From: Mesorhizobium sp. M1D.F.Ca.ET.043.01.1.1
GTDB taxonomy: Bacteria; Pseudomonadota; Alphaproteobacteria; Rhizobiales; Rhizobiaceae
Assembly: GCF_003952385.1 (NCBI RefSeq)
Contig: NZ_CP034444.1
Location: 4,911,001-4,975,000, forward strand
Direction: 5' to 3'
DNA: 64,000 nucleotides
Part shown: one piece after another, positions 3,090 to 62,772 of the stretch
How positions within the stretch are numbered: the first letter of the stretch is position 1
How the letters are laid out: each line of letters begins with the position of its first letter
Program-made: the position numbers and the translations under genes
Notes under the pieces: generated by a model
Seen by the model: the letters and a program-made list of their open reading frames with translations, nothing else
The model's database searches: none
Told to the model about the DNA's origin: nothing

Positions 3090-4880
3090 ATGCTCGATAT
3101 CGCACCATCGCAACAGGCGGCAACCTGGCTCGGCACCTTCGGCCGTGCGCTCGAGGCCGGCGACATCGAGGCGGCGACCAACCTTTTCATCGAGGATTGC
3201 TACTGGCGCGATTTGCTTGCCTTCACCTGGAACATAAAAACCATGGAAGGGCCGGCGGCGATCCGCGAGATGCTGGGGGCGACGCTGTCTATGGCGCAGC
3301 CCTTGCATTGGCGCCTGTCCGGTGAAGCAAGCGTCGATGACGGCGTCATCGAGGCCTGGTTCACTTTCGAGACGGTGGTGGCGCGAGGCGAGGGCATCCT
3401 GCGGCTCAGGGACGGCCGCTGCCGCACGCTGTTCACGGCGATGAGCGAGCTCAAGGGCTTCGAGGAGCAGAAGGGACCGGCCCGTCCGCTCGGCATCCGC
3501 CACAAGGCCGATCCCGAGCGTGAGACCTGGGCGGAGAAGAGGGCGCGCGAGGCGCGCGAGCTTGGCGTGCACGAGCAGCCCTATTGCCTGGTGATCGGCG
3601 GCGGCCAGGGCGGCATCATGCTCGGCGCCCGGCTGCGACAGCTCGGCGTTCCGACGCTGATCGTCGAGAAGAATGCGCGCGCGGGCGATTCCTGGCGCAA
3701 CCGCTACCGTTCGCTCGTGCTGCACGATCCGGTCTGGTACGACCATCTGCCCTACATTCCGTTCCCGGAGAACTGGCCGGTCTTCACGCCCAAGGACAAG
3801 ATGGGCGACTGGCTTGAAATGTATGCCCGCGTCATGGAGCTGAACTACTGGGTCGCCACCAAATGCGTCAGCGCCGCCTATGACGAGGCCGAAAAGGTCT
3901 GGACGGTGGTGGTCGACCGCGTCGGCCAGCGCATCACGCTGAAACCGAAGCATATCGTCTTCGCCACCGGCGCCTACGGGCCGCCGCGTCAGATCGATCT
4001 CCCCGGCGCGGACAGCTTCACGGGCGAGCTCCTCCATTCCAGCCAGTATTCCACCGGCGAGAAGTTCCGCGGCAAGCGCGTCGCGGTGATCGGCGCGGCA
4101 AGTTCGGGCCATGATGTCAGCGTCGATCTCTGGGAGGCAGGCGCCAAGATCACCATAGTGCAGCGCTCGCCGACGACGGTGGTGAAGTCCGACACGCTGA
4201 TGGAAGTCGGCTTCGAGATTTTTTCGGAGAAGGCGCTGGCGCGCGGCATCACCACCGACAAGGCCGACATGATCGTCGCCTCGACGCCGTTCGCGCTGGT
4301 GCCGAAAGGTCAGCGCGCACTCTACGATATCATCCGTGAGCGCGACGCGGAGTTCTACGAGCGCCTCAGCGCCAGCGGCTTCGCCATCGACTTCGGCGAG
4401 GACGAGACCGGGCTTTTGATGAAGGCCTATCGCACCGGTTCAGGTTTCTACATCGATGTCGGCGCCTGCGAGCTGATCCTGAACGGCGAGATCGCGGTGA
4501 AGAGCGGCGTCGGCATCAAGTCGCTGACGCCGAGCGGCATCCTGTTCGAGGACGGCAGCGAACTTGCCGTCGACGCGATCATCTCCTGCACCGGCTACCA
4601 GTCGATGAACGAGACGGTGGCGGGGATCGTCTCGCGCGAGGTTGCCGACAAGGTCGGCCCGTGCTGGGGCCTTGGCTCCGGCGTCAAGGGCGACCCCGGC
4701 CCGTGGCAGGGCGAGTTGCGCAACATGTGGAAGCCGACGGCGCAGGCGGCGCTGTGGTTCCACGGCGGCAACCTGGCGCTGTCGCGCTTCTATTCGAAGT
4801 TCGTGGCGATGCAGCTCAAGGCGCGCATGGAAGGGATTGCGACGCCGGTTTACGGCGAGCCGAGCAATTCGCGAACCTAG
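3090..4880 (+). CDS. Flavin-containing monooxygenase-type FAD/NAD(P)-dependent oxidoreductase with N-terminal NTF2-like domain
   Basis: 596 aa. Residues ~1-150 resemble an NTF2/SnoaL-like fold. The rest is a two-dinucleotide flavoprotein: the FAD motif VIGGGQGGIMLGARL near residue 167, the FMO-type fingerprint FTGELLHSSQY near 309 and the NADPH motif VIGAASSGHDV near 331. The family inserts one oxygen atom into N, S or carbonyl substrates; the substrate here is unknown. The start at 3090 is set by an AGGGGAACGAAGAAG ribosome-site region; an in-frame upstream extension to 2856 has no such signal and odd composition. It stands alone on its strand and converges on an amidohydrolase across an inverted repeat pair. 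Confidence 0.88.
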   Translation: MLDIAPSQQAATWLGTFGRALEAGDIEAATNLFIEDCYWRDLLAFTWNIKTMEGPAAIREMLGATLSMAQPLHWRLSGEASVDDGVIEAWFTFETVVARGEGILRLRDGRCRTLFTAMSELKGFEEQKGPARPLGIRHKADPERETWAEKRAREARELGVHEQPYCLVIGGGQGGIMLGARLRQLGVPTLIVEKNARAGDSWRNRYRSLVLHDPVWYDHLPYIPFPENWPVFTPKDKMGDWLEMYARVMELNYWVATKCVSAAYDEAEKVWTVVVDRVGQRITLKPKHIVFATGAYGPPRQIDLPGADSFTGELLHSSQYSTGEKFRGKRVAVIGAASSGHDVSVDLWEAGAKITIVQRSPTTVVKSDTLMEVGFEIFSEKALARGITTDKADMIVASTPFALVPKGQRALYDIIRERDAEFYERLSASGFAIDFGEDETGLLMKAYRTGSGFYIDVGACELILNGEIAVKSGVGIKSLTPSGILFEDGSELAVDAIISCTGYQSMNETVAGIVSREVADKVGPCWGLGSGVKGDPGPWQGELRNMWKPTAQAALWFHGGNLALSRFYSKFVAMQLKARMEGIATPVYGEPSNSRT

Positions 4881-4884
4881 CGTT

Positions 4885-4946
4885 CGTCATTCTAGGGCGG
4901 AGCAAGGAGCGAAGCGACGCGCGAAGGCCCTAGAATCCATGCCATG
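4885..4946 (+). repeat. Intergenic palindromic repeat, family A copy 1
   Basis: About 62 bp bounded by GTCATTCTAGGGCGGAGC at the left and CCCTAGAATCCATGCC at the right. The ATTCTAGGG and CCCTAGAAT ends pair. It lies 5 nt after the monooxygenase stop. An inverted second copy is at 5041-5099. Confidence 0.85.
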
Positions 4947-5040
4947 ACATTTGTGGCGTACGCAAGCGGACCAGAACGGGCTTCTTTCACGGGATCGGCG
5001 CAAGCCTCATTCTGCACCGCCGCATTCTTCGGCGATAGTC

Positions 5041-5099
5041 ACGGCATGGATTCTAGGGTCTGCGCTCCGCTTCGCGTCGCTCCGCCCTAGAATGACGAC
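5041..5099 (-). repeat. Intergenic palindromic repeat, family A copy 2 (inverted)
   Basis: Reverse-complement relative of the copy at 4885. The outer ends GCTCCGCCCTAGAATGAC and GTCATTCTAGGGCGGAGC can pair with each other across about 210 bp. It supplies the last codons and the TAG stop of the amidohydrolase gene, so it overlaps that CDS. Confidence 0.85.
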
Positions 5100-6322
5100 G
5101 AGGGGCCAAAATGCCTGGCCGCAACCTCGACATGCGTATGATGCGCGTGCGCTTCGAAGCGCTCGGTCTCGTTGCGGTCGGGCGCTTCGTTCGGCCACCA
5201 TTTGCCGCCGATGACGATGCCGTTGGAGACCAGCCGTTGGTCCGCGACCAGCGAGGCGCCGACCGCGTCGACGAAGGTGAAGCGACCCGGCTGCAATTTG
5301 AGCACCGCGACATCGCCGATGCCGCCAACCTTCAGCGTGCCGAGCTCCGGCCTCGCGATTGCCTCCGCCGGGCGCTGCGTCGCGGCGCGCAGCACCTCGA
5401 CCAGCGGCATGCCGAGCGCCATGAGCTTAGACATGCAGACGAGGATGTCGAAGGCCGGGCCGTCGACGCAGTAAAGATGCACGTCGCTCGAGATGACGTC
5501 GGGCGCCAGGCCTTCGGCGAGCATCGCCTTCGCAACCTCGAAGTCGAAGGAGCCCATGCCGTGGCCGATGTCGAAGATGACGCCGCGCTCGCGGGCGAGG
5601 CGCATGTCCGGCCGTACCGCGCCCGAAGCGAAGACCGGCGCGTTGGGAAACGGTCGGAAGCAGTGGGTGAGGATATCGCCGCGGCGCAGCCTGGGCAGCA
5701 CTTCCGAGCGGCCGGGCGGCGGCTCGTCGATATGTGCCATCAGCGGCAGGCCGACCTTGTCGGCGGCCTCGAGCGCGAGGTCGACCGGCGCGATGCCGCT
5801 GGTGCCGCCGGCATGCCTGCCGGAACGCACCTTGACGCCGACGACGACGTCGGCGTGCTCGCGCACCGCCGCCACCGTCTCGCGCGGCTCGCAGAGCCTG
5901 AGATCGGAACATTCGCCGACGGAAACGGTCTCGGCGAAGCCGAAGATGCCGGCGAAGGAGATGTTGACGTAGGCGAGGATGCGGACCTTCGAACGCTCGA
6001 TGACATGGCGGCGAAAGCCCAGGAAATTGCCGGCTCCGGCGCTGCCGGCGTCGATGAAGGTGGTGGTGCCGCTCTTGGCGGCGAGCCCGTCGGCGTCGAC
6101 GCCGAGCGAGGTGCCGCCCCAATAGACATGGCTGTGCAGGTCGACGAGCCCCGGCGTGACGATGCAGTCCCTGGCGTCGACGACCTCACCGGCGGCCTCG
6201 GCATCGATCGCCGCGTCGATGGCGGCGACGCGGCCATCGGCGATGGCGACGTCGCGTGATGCGTCGAGGCCTGACGCCGGATCAATCACACGACCGCCCT
6301 TGATCAGCAGATCGAACTGCAT
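5087..6322 (-). CDS. Amidohydrolase/deacetylase family metallohydrolase
   Basis: 411 aa, dihydroorotase-like amidohydrolase. Metal-site features are visible: VDLHSHVYWG (HxH) after the first strand, GVKVR as a possible carbamylated-lysine region, LMAHIDEPP, ILTHCFRPF and the closing ISSDVH aspartate. Family members hydrolyse cyclic or linear amide bonds in the cytoplasm; the substrate is unknown. It follows the RidA gene by 27 nt on the same strand, so they are probably co-transcribed. The final residues (SSSF) and the TAG stop are encoded inside repeat copy 2, so the C-terminus appears reshaped by the repeat. Confidence 0.88.
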   Translation of the reverse strand: MQFDLLIKGGRVIDPASGLDASRDVAIADGRVAAIDAAIDAEAAGEVVDARDCIVTPGLVDLHSHVYWGGTSLGVDADGLAAKSGTTTFIDAGSAGAGNFLGFRRHVIERSKVRILAYVNISFAGIFGFAETVSVGECSDLRLCEPRETVAAVREHADVVVGVKVRSGRHAGGTSGIAPVDLALEAADKVGLPLMAHIDEPPPGRSEVLPRLRRGDILTHCFRPFPNAPVFASGAVRPDMRLARERGVIFDIGHGMGSFDFEVAKAMLAEGLAPDVISSDVHLYCVDGPAFDILVCMSKLMALGMPLVEVLRAATQRPAEAIARPELGTLKVGGIGDVAVLKLQPGRFTFVDAVGASLVADQRLVSNGIVIGGKWWPNEAPDRNETERFEAHAHHTHVEVAARHFGPSSSF

Positions 6323-57264: not shown

Positions 57265-57469
57265 GTAATTTCGCCCCCTCAGCGAAAATGGTCCATCAGC
57301 GACCACGCATGTTGGCAGGCTAACGCAATCGAGCGATTTCGGCAAAGCATGGCCAGTCCGAAATGTGCCATGCAGCGGCCAGCCACCTGGAATCCAGCTT
57401 GCAGGCCGGGTATTTGTCTGACATGATTTAACACTTCCTAATGTTGCACTTGGCGATTGGGGCATAGTG

Positions 57470-58135
57470 ATGGCTAAGGAATCTTCGAGTGCCGCTGCTT
57501 CAGCAAGCAAAGCGGACGCAAATCTGATAGGTAATCCAGAGGGAAACGGACTGAACTTCATGGCCGCCCAGGCACGCGAGGGCGGGGCAGGCGGTGACGC
57601 TCCAGGTGTCGACAAGATACGCGATCTTTTGTTCGGCAACCAGATGCAGGACTATGATCGCCGCTTCTCCAAGCTTGAGGAGCGGTTCCTGCAGCGCTTC
57701 AAGGATGTCGAATCCGAAGCCAAGCGCAATCTTGAAACCTACGAGTCGAATGCGAAGAAGCAGGTTGACTCGCTGGCGACGCAGTTGCGCAACGAAAAAG
57801 ATGCGCGAGCCGAGGCTGACAAGGAGATCGACCGCAATCTTCGCGATCAGAATCAGGCGCTCGAAAAGCAGGTGCGCGCGTTGTCTGATCAATTGAGCGA
57901 GCTCGAGCGCGAAATAGCGGATCGCATGAACAGAAGCGACCATTTGCTGCGCGAGGAAATCAAGCAGAAGAACGAAAGCGCTCAATTGCTGATGGAGAAG
58001 ATTTTTTCCGATCTCAGCAACGTCAAGACCGACCGGAATCTTTTGGCCGGCCTGTTTGTCGAGGTCGCGAAGTGTCTCAATCAGGATCCCGTCGGCAGCA
58101 AGGGCAATTCGGAGCGTGGCTGGAAAGTGAGTTGA
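57470..58135 (+). CDS. Coiled-coil protein, first gene of the GTPase/OmpA/cyclase cluster
   Basis: 221 aa. The low-complexity N-terminus (SSSAAASASKADANL) is followed by a predicted long coiled coil from about residue 60 to 185, rich in E/K/R/Q heptads (RRFSKLEERFLQRFKDVESE, LEKQVRALSDQLSELEREIA). No signal or membrane segment. The ATG at 57470 is preferred over a GTG one codon earlier. It ends 7 nt before the OmpA-domain gene. A scaffold or adaptor role for the GTPase/membrane protein is inferred. Confidence 0.82.
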   Translation: MAKESSSAAASASKADANLIGNPEGNGLNFMAAQAREGGAGGDAPGVDKIRDLLFGNQMQDYDRRFSKLEERFLQRFKDVESEAKRNLETYESNAKKQVDSLATQLRNEKDARAEADKEIDRNLRDQNQALEKQVRALSDQLSELEREIADRMNRSDHLLREEIKQKNESAQLLMEKIFSDLSNVKTDRNLLAGLFVEVAKCLNQDPVGSKGNSERGWKVS

Positions 58136-58142
58136 TCGGAAC

Positions 58143-61100
58143 TTGACGTCGAGCGTCGAACCAATCAGCCTACCTCAAAGACGAGCTTCGAACGATACCG
58201 AGATTGATCGCGAGGCTTTGGCCCGCCTTTTGGTGGAAATTGCCCGGAACGTCGATCCGGACAACCATGCGCTTTACGAAGGAATTCCAGCCGCAGATCA
58301 TCAACTGGAAACGCTTCGCCAGTTGCTCGTCGGCGGCGAGATCTCGGAACTTTCACGGGTTACGCACCTGCTCGACGAACCCGAGCAGCTTGCGGCCGCG
58401 GTGGGGAACGTTCTCCCCGACGCTACCGCGCGCGCGTCTCATGAGCAACTCGGCGAGGCCCTCGCGCCGGCTGTCGAGAGGGCCGCGCAGCGGTCCATCC
58501 AGAAGAATCCGCACACGCTGACGGATATATTGTATCCGGTGTTTCTGCCGGCCATTCGCAAGTCGATCGGCGAAAAGATCGACCAGACCTTCCAGTCGCT
58601 GAATGAATCTTTAAGGCATATATTCACCTGGCACGGACTGAAGTGGAGATTTGAGGCCTGGCGCACCGGCACAAGCTTCTCCGAGGTCGTTCTCAATCAT
58701 TCTCTCGTCTACCGTGTTGAACATGTCTTTCTGATCAGCCGCAGTTCCGGGCTTCTGATCGCGCATGTAACGGCCGAAAACGCCACCAGCGAAGACCCTC
58801 AGCTCATTTCCTCGATGCTCAGCGCAATCCAGGATTTTGTGAGGGACTCGTTCAACGAGAAGGAACAGAGCGGCCTCGACACCATCCGGTTCGGGGAGCT
58901 TCGCCTCTGGTCGGAAGTCGGACCGTTCGCGACCTTGGTGGCGGTGATCCGGGGAAATCCGCCGGAGGAACTTCATGAAGTAATCCGCGATGCATTGCTT
59001 CGCATCCACGATGAATCCTCGCAGGCTTTGGAGCGGTTCGACGGTGACACGTCGCAGTTGCCCGGCGTGGAGACGCAGTTGCAGACCTGCGTCGAACTGC
59101 AGCATACGGATTCGAAAGAAGGATTTCCCTGGCTGGTGGTGACGGCGGCCCTGCTGATTTTGATAGCGGCAGGCGGCTGGTTCTTTCTCTCCTGGCAATC
59201 CGGACAGCGCTGGCAGGCCTATGTGTCGCGCCTGGCGGCCCAGCCTGGCATCGTCGTTGCCGAACAAAAGGTGCGCGGTGGCGAATTCTATATTGCCGGC
59301 CTGAGGGACCCGCTTGCCGCCGACCCGCAGTCGCTGTTGTCCGGAACTGAGGTCGATCCCGCGCGCGTTCACGCGAGCTGGCAATTCTACCAGAGCCTCG
59401 AGCCGGAGTTCGTGCTGAAGCGGCTGACGGCGTCACTGGCCCCGCCGGAGTCGGTGCGGCTTTCGGTCGTCGATGGCCGCATCGTCGCCGAGGGCGAGGC
59501 AACCACCGCGTGGATCAACCGGGCGCGAGCCGCCGCCCAGCAGCTTTCGGCAGGCGGACCGGTATTCGATATCGCCGGGGTCCGCGATGTGAGCCCCGAG
59601 GAGCGCTGGCAGGCCTATGTGTCGCGGCTGCAGACTCAGCCCGGCATCATCGTTGCCGAACAGAATGTGCGCGATGGCCAGTTCTATATTGCCGGCCTGA
59701 GGGACCCGCTCGCCGCCGACCCGCAGTCGCTGTTGTCCGGAACGCAGGTCGATCCCGCGCGCGTTCATTCAACCTGGCAGTTCTACCAGAGCCTTGAGCC
59801 GCAGTTCGTGCTGAAGCGGCTGACGGCGTCGCTGGCGCCGCCGGATTCTGTGCGGCTTTCAGTCGTCAATGGTCGCATCGTTGCCGCGGGTGAGGCCACC
59901 ACCGCGTGGATCAACCGGGCGCGGGCCGCCGCCCAGCAGCTTTCAGCCGGCGGACCGGTCTTCGACATCTCCGGGGTCCGTGACGTGAGTCCCGAGGAGC
60001 GCTGGCAGGCCTATGTGGCGCGTCTGCAGACTCAGCCCGGCATCATCGTCGCCCAGCAGAACGTGCGCGACGGCCAATTCTATATTGCCGGCCTGAGAGA
60101 CCCGCTTGCCGCCGACCCGCAGTCGCTGCTGTCGGGAACCGAGCTCGATCCCGCGCGCGTTCATTCAACCTGGCAGTTCTACCAGAGCCTTGAGCCGCAG
60201 TTCGTGCTGAAGCGGCTGACGGCGTCGCTGTATCCGCCGGATACAGTACGACTTTCGATCGTCAAGGACCGCATCGTTGCCGAGGGTGAGGCTCCCGACA
60301 CCTGGATAGATCGAGCGCGTGCAGCAGCTCGACAGCTTTCAGCAGGCGGACCGGAGTTCGACATCTCCAAGGTTCGTGATGTTAGCCCCGATGCACGCGC
60401 GGCGGAGCATTGGCAGTATTATGTGTCGCGACTTGAGGCCCAGCCGGGAATCATCGTCGCTCAACAAACGGCGAGGGGCGGACATTTCTACATTTCCGGT
60501 CTGAGAGACCCTCTTGCCGTCGACCCGCAAGCTCTGCTGTCCGGAACGCAGGTTGATCCTGCCCGCGTTCATTCACAGTGGCAATTCTATCAGAGTCTTG
60601 ATCCGAAGTTCGTGGTGAAGCGGCTGACGGCGTCGCTATCCCCGCCGAAATCGGTTCGGCTGTCGATCATCCAGGGCCGCATCGTTGTCGTGGGCGAGGC
60701 TCCTGCCGGCTGGATCGGCCGGGCGCAGGCCGCCGCCGAACAACTTTCGGCGGACGGAGTGGTTCTTGATGTCTCGCAGCTGCGCGAGCTGAACCTTGCA
60801 GAACTTAATCATTTGAGAGATTCCATCCAGACGACCGATATTTTCTTCTCTTCCGGGAGAGTTGTCCCGGGACCGGAGCAGACGCCGGCGCTCGACAGAT
60901 TGGCTGATCAATTGAAGGAATTCGCCGAAAATGCCCGCAAGGCAGGCGTGACAGCGCGGTTTATGTTGACCGGCCATTCGGACACGACGGGCCGTGAGAC
61001 GGCCAACGCGTCGATCAGCGCCGCCCGCGCCGAGACGGTTCGCGCGCTTCTCAACAAGCGCGGCGTCGCTCCGGAACTGCTGCTGGTTCGAGGCGCTGGC

Positions 61101-61190
61101 ACCTTTGAGCCAGCGGTGCCCGAAAATGAAAATAGTCGAACTGGGAACTCCACCAATCGCCGGGTTTCGGTTACGGTGAACTTGGAGTAG
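58143..61190 (+). CDS. Large inner-membrane protein with four ~132-aa repeats and C-terminal OmpA domain
   Basis: 1015 aa. The cytoplasmic part (~1-325) holds a mixed alpha/beta region around 185-290 (EHVFLISRSSGLLIAHVTAE, LRLWSEVGPFATLVAVIRG) reminiscent of roadblock/longin folds. One membrane span, WLVVTAALLILIAAGGWFFL, lies near 331-350. Four periplasmic repeats start near residues 356, 488, 620 and 756, each with a QPGI-V core and YIAGLRDPLAADPQSLLSG. The OmpA peptidoglycan-binding domain is at ~895-1015 (MLTGHSDTTGRE, NRRVSVTVNLE). TTG start; the ribosome site is weak, so the first codons are uncertain. It is 13 nt before the GTPase gene. Confidence 0.88.
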   Translation: MTSSVEPISLPQRRASNDTEIDREALARLLVEIARNVDPDNHALYEGIPAADHQLETLRQLLVGGEISELSRVTHLLDEPEQLAAAVGNVLPDATARASHEQLGEALAPAVERAAQRSIQKNPHTLTDILYPVFLPAIRKSIGEKIDQTFQSLNESLRHIFTWHGLKWRFEAWRTGTSFSEVVLNHSLVYRVEHVFLISRSSGLLIAHVTAENATSEDPQLISSMLSAIQDFVRDSFNEKEQSGLDTIRFGELRLWSEVGPFATLVAVIRGNPPEELHEVIRDALLRIHDESSQALERFDGDTSQLPGVETQLQTCVELQHTDSKEGFPWLVVTAALLILIAAGGWFFLSWQSGQRWQAYVSRLAAQPGIVVAEQKVRGGEFYIAGLRDPLAADPQSLLSGTEVDPARVHASWQFYQSLEPEFVLKRLTASLAPPESVRLSVVDGRIVAEGEATTAWINRARAAAQQLSAGGPVFDIAGVRDVSPEERWQAYVSRLQTQPGIIVAEQNVRDGQFYIAGLRDPLAADPQSLLSGTQVDPARVHSTWQFYQSLEPQFVLKRLTASLAPPDSVRLSVVNGRIVAAGEATTAWINRARAAAQQLSAGGPVFDISGVRDVSPEERWQAYVARLQTQPGIIVAQQNVRDGQFYIAGLRDPLAADPQSLLSGTELDPARVHSTWQFYQSLEPQFVLKRLTASLYPPDTVRLSIVKDRIVAEGEAPDTWIDRARAAARQLSAGGPEFDISKVRDVSPDARAAEHWQYYVSRLEAQPGIIVAQQTARGGHFYISGLRDPLAVDPQALLSGTQVDPARVHSQWQFYQSLDPKFVVKRLTASLSPPKSVRLSIIQGRIVVVGEAPAGWIGRAQAAAEQLSADGVVLDVSQLRELNLAELNHLRDSIQTTDIFFSSGRVVPGPEQTPALDRLADQLKEFAENARKAGVTARFMLTGHSDTTGRETANASISAARAETVRALLNKRGVAPELLLVRGAGTFEPAVPENENSRTGNSTNRRVSVTVNLE
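59208..60800 (+). repeat. Four tandem in-frame repeats inside the OmpA-domain gene
   Basis: Unit starts at 59208, 59604, 60000 and 60408; units 1-3 are exactly 396 bp, unit 3 to 4 is 408 bp. Units 2 and 3 are nearly identical over long DNA stretches (CTATATTGCCGGCCTGAG and CGCGCGTTCATTCAACCTGG recur), which points to recent duplication. Unit 4 is the most diverged. Confidence 0.9.
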
Positions 61191-61203
61191 TGCGGGGCCC
61201 AGG

Positions 61204-61698
61204 ATGCTGCAAAAAAAGATCTGCATGTTGGGCGGGTTTGCTGTCGGCAAGACGAGCCTGGTGCGCAGGTTCGTCCAAAGCATCTTTTCAGATACCTACT
61301 TGACCACGGTGGGCGTGAAAATCGACAAGAAAAGCGTCGCGTTTCCGGACAAGACAGTGGACCTGATTTTGTGGGATCTGGCCGGCGAAGACGATATCGG
61401 CTCATTCCGCGTCAGCTATGTGCGCGGTGCGGCCGGGCTCGTGCTTGTCGTCGATGGAACCCGGCCCGCCACTCTCGCCGTGGCGCTCACGCTGCGTGAG
61501 CGGGCCGAGGCCGAATTCGGCACCATGCCGTTCGTATTGCTATTCAACAAATCCGATCTGGCCGATCGGTGGGCGATATCGGATGGCGAGATCGACGAAC
61601 TGAAGCAACGTGGCTGGCAGATCTATCTGACAAGCGCGCTTTCGGGCGTACATGTCGACGATGCGTTTCGTCAGCTTGCTTCGATGGTCGCCAAGTAG
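61204..61698 (+). CDS. Rab/Ras-like small GTPase
   Basis: 164 aa, a single G domain. G1 GGFAVGKTS (10-18), switch I TYLTTVGVKID with Thr34/35, G3 WDLAGED (57-63, Glu62 where Ras has Gln61), G4 NKSD (115-118) and G5 TSA (143-145) are all present. There is no lipid-tail cysteine. The TYLTTVGV and WDLAGE blocks are closest to the Rab/Roc style of bacterial small GTPases. The Glu at the catalytic position may slow hydrolysis and imply a GAP-like partner. It is encoded directly between the OmpA-repeat membrane protein and the cyclase. Confidence 0.92.
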   Translation: MLQKKICMLGGFAVGKTSLVRRFVQSIFSDTYLTTVGVKIDKKSVAFPDKTVDLILWDLAGEDDIGSFRVSYVRGAAGLVLVVDGTRPATLAVALTLRERAEAEFGTMPFVLLFNKSDLADRWAISDGEIDELKQRGWQIYLTSALSGVHVDDAFRQLASMVAK

Positions 61699-61701
61699 AC
61701 C

Positions 61702-62772
61702 ATGGCCAGCGTGCCGAAAGAAGTCAGAAGCTGGATATACGATTTCTTCTATAATGAGCGTTCTGCCGCATATCTGAAAATTGACGCCCGGCAATGCATA
61801 GCCGCGAAGGGCGGCAACATTGAACATTACGGACTCTCGTCGCTTCGCGTCGGCAAGCCCGTCTCCGACCAGCTTGAGTTCATGGAAGGGCTGCTCCCTT
61901 GCCCGGAACTTCCATTTCACATGCCTATGATGGAACTGCCCGGCGGGCGTGTCGCGGACCTCCATCTCTTTGGCGACGGCAGCTCGGTGTGGCTGCTCTT
62001 TCTCGACGCCACTCCCGAACGCGACCACCAGCAGCGTCTTCAACAGAAGGCTTATGAAATGACGCTCCTGCAAGAGAGGGAGCGTCAACTCAATGCGAAA
62101 CTGCAATCGACGAACGAGGCGTTGAGGGAGAGCCAGGAGGGTTTGTCGCGCGAATACAGGCGCGCCGAATCCCTTCTCCTCAACATTCTTCCGGCGTCGA
62201 TCGCGGAGCGGTTGAAAGCGGACGAACAGATTGCGGACAGCCACGCAGAGGTGAGCGTGCTTTTTGCCGACATCGTCGGTTTTACGGAAAGGGCGCGCAA
62301 CGTCGGAGCCGCGACGACGCTCGCTATCTTGAACTACTTCTTCAAGGCGGCGGATCTGCTCTCGGAACAATATGGTTGCGAAAAGATCAAGACCATCGGC
62401 GATTGTGTCATGGCGGTCGCCGGCCTGCCCGTCGCGCGATCCGATCATGCGGAAGCCCTTGCGCACTATGCGCTTGAGCTGCGGGAGACGGCGAGGCGCG
62501 AGCGCTTCGCAGGCGAACCGCTAAGCCTCAGGATTGGAATCCACTCCGGACCGATCGTGGCGGGCGTGATAGGCAAAAGGCGGTTTGTCTATGACCTGTG
62601 GGGCGACACCGTCAATCTCGCCGCGCGGATTCAAAAGGCCGCGGAGCCCGATGAAATCCGCATTTCGGATGCGACCCACGAATTGCTCGGCGCGGATTTT
62701 TCTTGCGACCCACTCGGGGAAACCGAATTGCGTGGAACAGGCCGCGTGCGAATGTGGCGGCTCCGGGCCTGA
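61702..62772 (+). CDS. Class III adenylate cyclase with N-terminal sensor domain
   Basis: 356 aa. An N-terminal PAS-like domain (~1-105) is joined by a coiled-coil linker (110-160) to a cyclase catalytic domain (180-356). Metal aspartates Asp190 (FADIVGFTERA) and Asp234 (KTIGDCVMA), transition-state Asn305 and Arg309 (DTVNLAARI), and the adenine-selecting pair Lys230/Asp298 are present, pointing to ATP rather than GTP. It has no membrane span. It starts 3 nt after the GTPase stop, so coupling is very likely. Confidence 0.93.
   Translation: MASVPKEVRSWIYDFFYNERSAAYLKIDARQCIAAKGGNIEHYGLSSLRVGKPVSDQLEFMEGLLPCPELPFHMPMMELPGGRVADLHLFGDGSSVWLLFLDATPERDHQQRLQQKAYEMTLLQERERQLNAKLQSTNEALRESQEGLSREYRRAESLLLNILPASIAERLKADEQIADSHAEVSVLFADIVGFTERARNVGAATTLAILNYFFKAADLLSEQYGCEKIKTIGDCVMAVAGLPVARSDHAEALAHYALELRETARRERFAGEPLSLRIGIHSGPIVAGVIGKRRFVYDLWGDTVNLAARIQKAAEPDEIRISDATHELLGADFSCDPLGETELRGTGRVRMWRLRA

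Follow-up and report, generated by a model that had tools for sequence, protein, structure and literature searches.

Sequence and model analysis of a Group 1 Rup GTPase cassette with a putative adenylate cyclase output and a predicted longin/roadblock receptor domain

Genes of the cassette and their products

The window, that is, the whole stretch of 64,000 nucleotides that was analysed, contains a cassette of four plus-strand open reading frames separated by gaps of 7, 13 and 3 nt (Table 1), the same arrangement that had been noticed in an earlier, sequence-only reading. The cassette is flanked by a minus-strand LysR-type gene on one side and a minus-strand RND transporter gene on the other, and its host genome measures 7.13 Mb. 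The closest named relatives, as judged with the GTPase profile in the named genome collection, are Mesorhizobium, and the NCBI annotation of one relative reads hypothetical protein, OmpA family protein, Rab family GTPase and adenylate/guanylate cyclase domain-containing protein. A scan for sigma-70 promoters returned 1 site against 1.3 expected and is uninformative.

Table 1. Positions of the genes and features of the cassette in the window
Feature	Position	Strand	Details
Coiled-coil protein	57467-58135	+	222 aa from GTG; ATG immediately after, at 57470
Inner-membrane receptor	58143-61190	+	1015 aa, TTG start; inferred topology, N to C: cytoplasmic domain, transmembrane helix, periplasmic repeats, OmpA domain
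Predicted longin/roadblock-like domain of receptor	58713-59033	+	AlphaFold2 model; limits from secondary structure
Likely transmembrane helix of receptor	59127-59195	+	residues about 329-351, by eye
Putative periplasmic repeats of receptor	59205-60797	+	four of about 132 aa: 59205-59600, 59601-59996, 59997-60392, 60405-60797
OmpA-type peptidoglycan-binding domain	60873-61136	+	Pfam PF00691, residues 911-998, E 5.7e-11
Rup-type small GTPase	61204-61698	+	164 aa
Class III adenylate cyclase with adapter and helical linker	61702-62772	+	356 aa
N-terminal PAS-like output adapter of cyclase	61702-62010	+	residues 1-103; model
Q115 codon, adapter/linker junction	62044-62046	+	
Catalytic cyclase domain	62236-62763	+	residues 179-354; PF00211, E 3.8e-49

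The product of the second gene had been read as an OmpA-domain protein that spans the inner membrane, and this is consistent with the Pfam match to OmpA together with a membrane helix and a periplasmic side read by eye. The four DNA copies of its repeat, compared over 300 nt, follow each other at spacings of 396, 396 and 408 nt and are 78-89% identical to the reference copy. Among 73 receptors, that of the window included, the number of repeat matches was four in 28, three in 26, two in 6, one in 12 and five in a single protein, some of the low counts belonging to proteins cut by assembly gaps; distant relatives, e.g., L108, L111 and L120, have the repeat domain once or twice. The variable repeat number goes beyond the description of this receptor type by Wuichet and Sogaard-Andersen (2014; PMC4316618). 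An identity of the repeats with the BON domain was rejected, the first repeat scoring 14.1 bits (cut-off 27), the fourth giving no match and the whole receptor protein reaching 17.5 bits, which is under the Pfam cut-off.

The third gene encodes a GTPase of the Ras family (Pfam, E 3.7e-27), the best solved relatives of which are Rab23 and Rab6. It carries GGFAVGKTS, T35, DLAGE, NKSD and TSA, which we take to be motifs G1 to G5, respectively. All five G motifs expected from the earlier reading are hence in place, though the G3 motif has a glutamate at the position of the catalytic glutamine of Ras and Rab proteins. The protein lacks a C-terminal cysteine.

The fourth protein is, as judged from its sequence, a class III adenylate cyclase and putatively forms cAMP. 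The six catalytic residues D190, K230, D234, D298, N305 and R309 are all present, in agreement with the intact ATP-type site that had been read from the sequence; by comparison with the mammalian cyclase, D190 and D234 are presumably the metal-binding aspartates, K230 and D298 the adenine-selecting residues, and N305 and R309 the residues that act on the transition state. Full cyclase motifs were found in 67 of 68 rhizobial relatives, the exception being L047 with DIVSFT for DIVGFT. The structural model of the cyclase (pLDDT 81.4, pTM 0.50) consists of a five-stranded PAS-like domain, a 59-residue helix and the cyclase domain. The five strands lie within residues 23-102, and a PAS-like fold is therewith predicted for the N-terminal output adapter, for which a sequence search gave no credible solved relatives. 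Q115 is located near the start of the long helix. In a Foldseek search the best match of the model was a bacterial adenylyl cyclase (44% identity). Alignments with soluble guanylate cyclase extended up to 424 columns at an rmsd of 22-30 A, and the agreement is therefore in domain order only, not in domain placement; the PAS-helix-cyclase order is shared by both, whereas the cassette cyclase has no H-NOX domain. Of 24 matches to class III cyclases in the host genome (G000), the Rup adapter profile matches the cyclase of the cassette only. Several Mesorhizobium genomes (L041, L043-L046, L048, L052 and L106) have a further class III cyclase of about 480 aa on the other strand, no more than about 2.2 kb downstream of their cassette.

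On these gene features, the four-gene set is a Group 1 Rup cassette with a cyclase output. Hence, the statement of the earlier reading that no named pathway has this set does not stand, as a Group 1 Rup system with these neighbours was described, and proposed to be a membrane-signalling system, in PMC4316618, which also names a Group 1 member in Mesorhizobium loti; our assignment is based on the gene features and that M. loti member. The shared features are a single-domain Ras-superfamily GTPase without the G3 glutamine, a neighbouring cytoplasmic protein of predicted coiled-coil type, a neighbour with a conserved domain, a membrane helix (read by eye here) and an OmpA domain, and a signalling output with an invariant glutamine in its N-terminal region (Q115 here). 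The cassette differs in its output, a class III cyclase and not the GGDEF/EAL or histidine kinase outputs that the paper gives as typical, though not defining, for Group 1, and in the longin/roadblock fold predicted for the receptor domain. The main text of PMC4316618 gave 0 matches for 'adenylate cyclase', and among the matches listed in a search of the open-access literature no paper dealt with a cyclase as output of a Group 1 Rup receptor. PMC4316618 further states that no Rup protein had been experimentally characterised at that time.

Conservation of the gene set and variety of its outputs

The GTPase profile search of the named genome collection revealed 448 relatives, and the best 80 of the 448 loci, which lean to Mesorhizobium, were examined. 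The gene order of the cassette, with all four genes on one strand, is kept in 69 of these best 80 loci, where the fourth gene, recognised via its N-terminal adapter, encodes a cyclase in 63 cases, a SpoIIE phosphatase in 5 and a protein cut after the adapter in 1. Eight of the 11 remaining loci start near a contig end and retain the GTPase-cyclase pair, and two, from Desulfobacterales, combine the first three genes with an output of histidine kinase or HD-GYP type; in L113 (SpoIIE), the apparent change of order stems from an ORF start that was placed too early. Furthermore, the GTPase (E <= 1e-3) and the receptor cytoplasmic domain (E <= 1e-10) were detected in the same 16 genomes among 150 sampled from the order. 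The earlier reading had allowed that the genes might rarely co-occur or that their order might be an isolated accident, and both searches point instead to strong co-occurrence across genomes. The adapter type of the window was found in 3 of the 150 order genomes, once in each and every time beside the GTPase; no match was obtained in the other 13 GTPase-bearing genomes sampled.

A wider comparison covered 65 GTPase loci, chosen for the most part among the sampled genomes. They come from a set of 66 (15 from the order search, 13 named, 35 hand-picked regions and 3 plasmid loci), with L182 (E 9e-16) left out by the limit of E <= 1e-20; 17 of the 65 represent one family (f231). The receptor domain lies at most 1 kb from the GTPase in 63 of these loci, the exceptions being L162, where the contig ends, and L164, which has no such end. 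L164 combines the GTPase with an HD-GYP output and has no receptor domain within the stretch analysed, and its genome carries a second cassette (L165) with receptor and cyclase. In L158, two receptor-domain genes (225-2882 and 3435-5108) precede a single GTPase. L029, L036, L037 and L171 are GTPase-receptor pairs with no recognisable output adjoining the GTPase, and the output may be encoded elsewhere. Plasmid records with the GTPase were four in number (two Rhizobium, one Mesorhizobium, one Nostoc); the neighbour genes were present in all three plasmid loci examined, and the Nostoc plasmid has a histidine kinase output. At E 1e-60 or better, the cyclase was found in 80 of 146 Mesorhizobium genomes and is not essential to the genus, because the other 66 gave no match at this threshold.

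The outputs at the 65 GTPase loci comprise 26 class III cyclases (6 of the window type and 20 of another type, typed by motif), 12 histidine kinases, 6 SpoIIE, 4 GGDEF-EAL, 3 HD-GYP and 3 LuxR-type proteins, and 11 that are without class or cut. These classes come from a Pfam scan for 20 outputs (19 classed, L154 with none) and from motif or similarity for the remainder, and two of the three LuxR-type outputs (L032 and L033) were classed solely by likeness to L034. The adapter is common to cyclase, SpoIIE, histidine kinase, HD-GYP and GGDEF-EAL outputs, and Q115 is the sole invariant column when 32 outputs with these five catalytic domain types are aligned; a glutamine also stands at this position in 68 of 68 rhizobial cyclases. 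A match to the adapter profile is missing in 18 of the 65 next genes, 6 of which (L160, L161, L176, L177, L181 and L188) are nonetheless in the 32-output alignment. The profile was trained partly on proteins that it then found, and the independent check is a profile comparison of divergent adapters. The divergent set (seven histidine kinases, one LuxR-type protein and one without class) matched the first set with E 8.6e-10 and a probability of 96.5%. The matching column holds a glutamine in seven of these nine adapters. In L030 the residue lies one place before that column, and it is missing from the LuxR-type L034, as it is from L032 and L033. Two weak adapter matches away from the GTPase (L031 and L166) both lack the glutamine.

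In a GTPase tree with 68 rows, which was made by a quick method, carries a long-branch warning and leaves some branchings unsettled, the cyclase type of the window forms one group (SH-aLRT 98), and the output labels need at least 11 changes, a count in which the two cyclase types and one unclassed output are separate labels. Outputs therefore seem to have been exchanged repeatedly among Rup cassettes.

Predicted fold of the receptor cytoplasmic domain

An AlphaFold2 model of the cytoplasmic segment of the receptor, built with 49 sequences, reached a mean pLDDT of 77.9 and a pTM of 0.53, and residues 168-274 of the modelled segment form a beta-beta-alpha-beta-beta-beta-alpha arrangement. Foldseek returned 1171 matches to this model at E <= 10 and 14 at E <= 0.001. 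The best among the 50 matches listed was Mon1-Ccz1 with Ypt7 (E 1.3e-4), with GATOR1-Rag, Sec22b, AP sigma, MglB with MglA (6.8e-4) and TRAPP among the further leaders and Fuzzy-Inturned:Rab23 lower in the same 50. We take nearly all of the 50 listed matches to be proteins of longin or roadblock type, many of which have small GTPases as partners. A longin/roadblock fold is thus predicted for the receptor cytoplasmic domain, at modest Foldseek E-values.

Sequence comparison gives no more than a hint of this fold. In a Pfam scan of 49 receptor domains, Fuz_longin_1 matched one (E 0.0032) and Robl_LC7 one (E 0.06), and the profile comparison with roadblock domains gave E 0.016 and a probability of 2.9%, with four control comparisons of unrelated profiles at E 0.062 to 0.7. 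By sequence, membership of the domain in the MglB family is not significant. The Robl_LC7 model had zero matches in the host genome at E 1e-3, and no credible solved relatives of the domain were found by sequence search.

The receptor domain is termed 'of unknown function' in the account of Group 1 in PMC4316618, and among the open-access matches listed there was no paper on a longin or roadblock domain in a Group 1 Rup receptor. PMC3521125 argues that longin domains arose from roadblock-type domains of prokaryotes and that the two have a common mode of GTPase interaction. The predicted domain is a concrete candidate for the regulator of Rup and bears on the origin of Rab-longin pairs.

A possible relay from the cell wall to cAMP

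The chain proposed in the sequence-only reading, from periplasmic sensing via the GTPase to cAMP, is plausible and partly supported, because the conserved gene set, the predicted longin/roadblock fold, the common output adapter and the intact cyclase fit it; in the open-access literature, no paper was found that tests any of its steps. On balance, we consider it probable that the Group 1 Rup system forms a relay, with a wall-anchored receptor that controls the state of the GTPase and a GTPase that in turn switches the cyclase via the adapter. The OmpA domain would anchor the receptor to peptidoglycan, and the longin domain would receive from the repeats, through the inner membrane, information on a state of the wall or periplasm. 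The longin domain would bind Rup and set its GDP/GTP state, either in a GEF-like manner, comparable to Mon1-Ccz1 and TRAPP with Rabs, or in a GAP-like manner, comparable to MglB with MglA. Rup-GTP would then bind the adapter, and the helix that follows Q115 could shift the alignment of the cyclase dimer and so change the output of cAMP.

The invariant glutamine can also be read in another way. In its discussion of Group 1 outputs, PMC4316618 proposes that this residue may complete GTP hydrolysis in trans, and the output could then be mainly a GAP for Rup, the cyclase reporting or timing hydrolysis and not being activated by Rup-GTP. Such a role would suit a Rup protein without the G3 glutamine and an adapter in which Q115 is the only invariant column. 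However, the position of the glutamine near the start of the long helix means that its conservation could as well serve signal transmission, it is missing in L032-L034 and one place off in L030, and a GAP role is compatible with an effector role; a mainly GAP function of the output is in our view unlikely. A system for positioning and not for switching, comparable to MglA/MglB, appears quite improbable: Rup and the receptor would place the enzyme at a pole or wall site, and cAMP would change only locally. The predicted longin/roadblock-like fold, the OmpA wall anchor and the exchangeable outputs would all agree with positioning, but among the four products no known polarity protein was recognised with Pfam and NCBIfam, and the conserved layout of adapter, helix and catalytic domain would be needless for positioning alone. 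An accident of gene order without common function is contradicted by the finding that the genes occur together and in order in alphaproteobacteria, Variovorax and Desulfobacterales and on a Nostoc plasmid, and has been dismissed as next to impossible.

The proposed relay has several partial counterparts. The Mon1-Ccz1/Ypt7, TRAPP/Ypt1 and Fuzzy-Inturned/Rab23 systems likewise have a Rab-like GTPase alongside a longin-fold protein (predicted here), whereas the putative exchange factor of the cassette is bacterial and a single transmembrane, wall-anchored protein. In yeast, the small GTPase Ras2 controls the cyclase Cyr1, which resembles the relay proposed for the cassette, with a coupling that may not be homologous. 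MglA/MglB also consists of a bacterial Ras-family GTPase and a regulator of roadblock fold, here a predicted one, and differs in that Robl_LC7 matches the receptor domain in just the one case given above; Table 1 of PMC4316618 lists no MglB coupling for Rup. In the RdcA/RdcB-DgcE system of E. coli, as presented in PMC6510439, a second-messenger enzyme with a PAS domain is the direct target of a GTPase and is activated by it, which is what we propose here; its own features are a dynamin-like GTPase, c-di-GMP and an input via the MASE1 membrane domain.

Quite possibly, though we put this forward tentatively, the cassette is a bacterial plug-and-play counterpart of the Rab/longin-GEF pair, in which a peptidoglycan-anchored longin receptor switches a Rab-like GTPase that drives any adapter-bearing enzyme. 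If so, Mesorhizobium would have wired a Rab/longin-like module to cAMP and its relatives would have wired it to c-di-GMP, phosphatase, kinase and transcription outputs, and the bacterial Rab-longin pairing could be older than, or parallel to, the Rab regulators of eukaryotes. Compared with the description of 2014, the additions are the cyclase output, the exchangeable adapter and the predicted longin/roadblock fold, which make the system testable. The adapter defines an effector interface that is open to testing, and the cAMP version in Mesorhizobium would offer a direct read-out in a plant symbiont.

The first protein of the cassette probably serves as a scaffold for the receptor and the GTPase. 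It matched no Pfam or NCBIfam family above the cut-off, and its designation as a coiled-coil protein is based on weak matches to families of coiled-coil type and on a reading of the sequence. In 55 of 66 loci, the profile of this protein, trained on some of the same sequences, matches a gene that adjoins the receptor gene or overlaps its start, and R52 and G57 are invariant among 21 aligned homologues. A short motif is common to the coiled-coil protein (VDKIRDLLFG, 57608-57637) and the receptor N-terminus (LETLRQLLVG, 58305-58334) and recurs among homologues of both; it is perhaps a common docking or pairing element.
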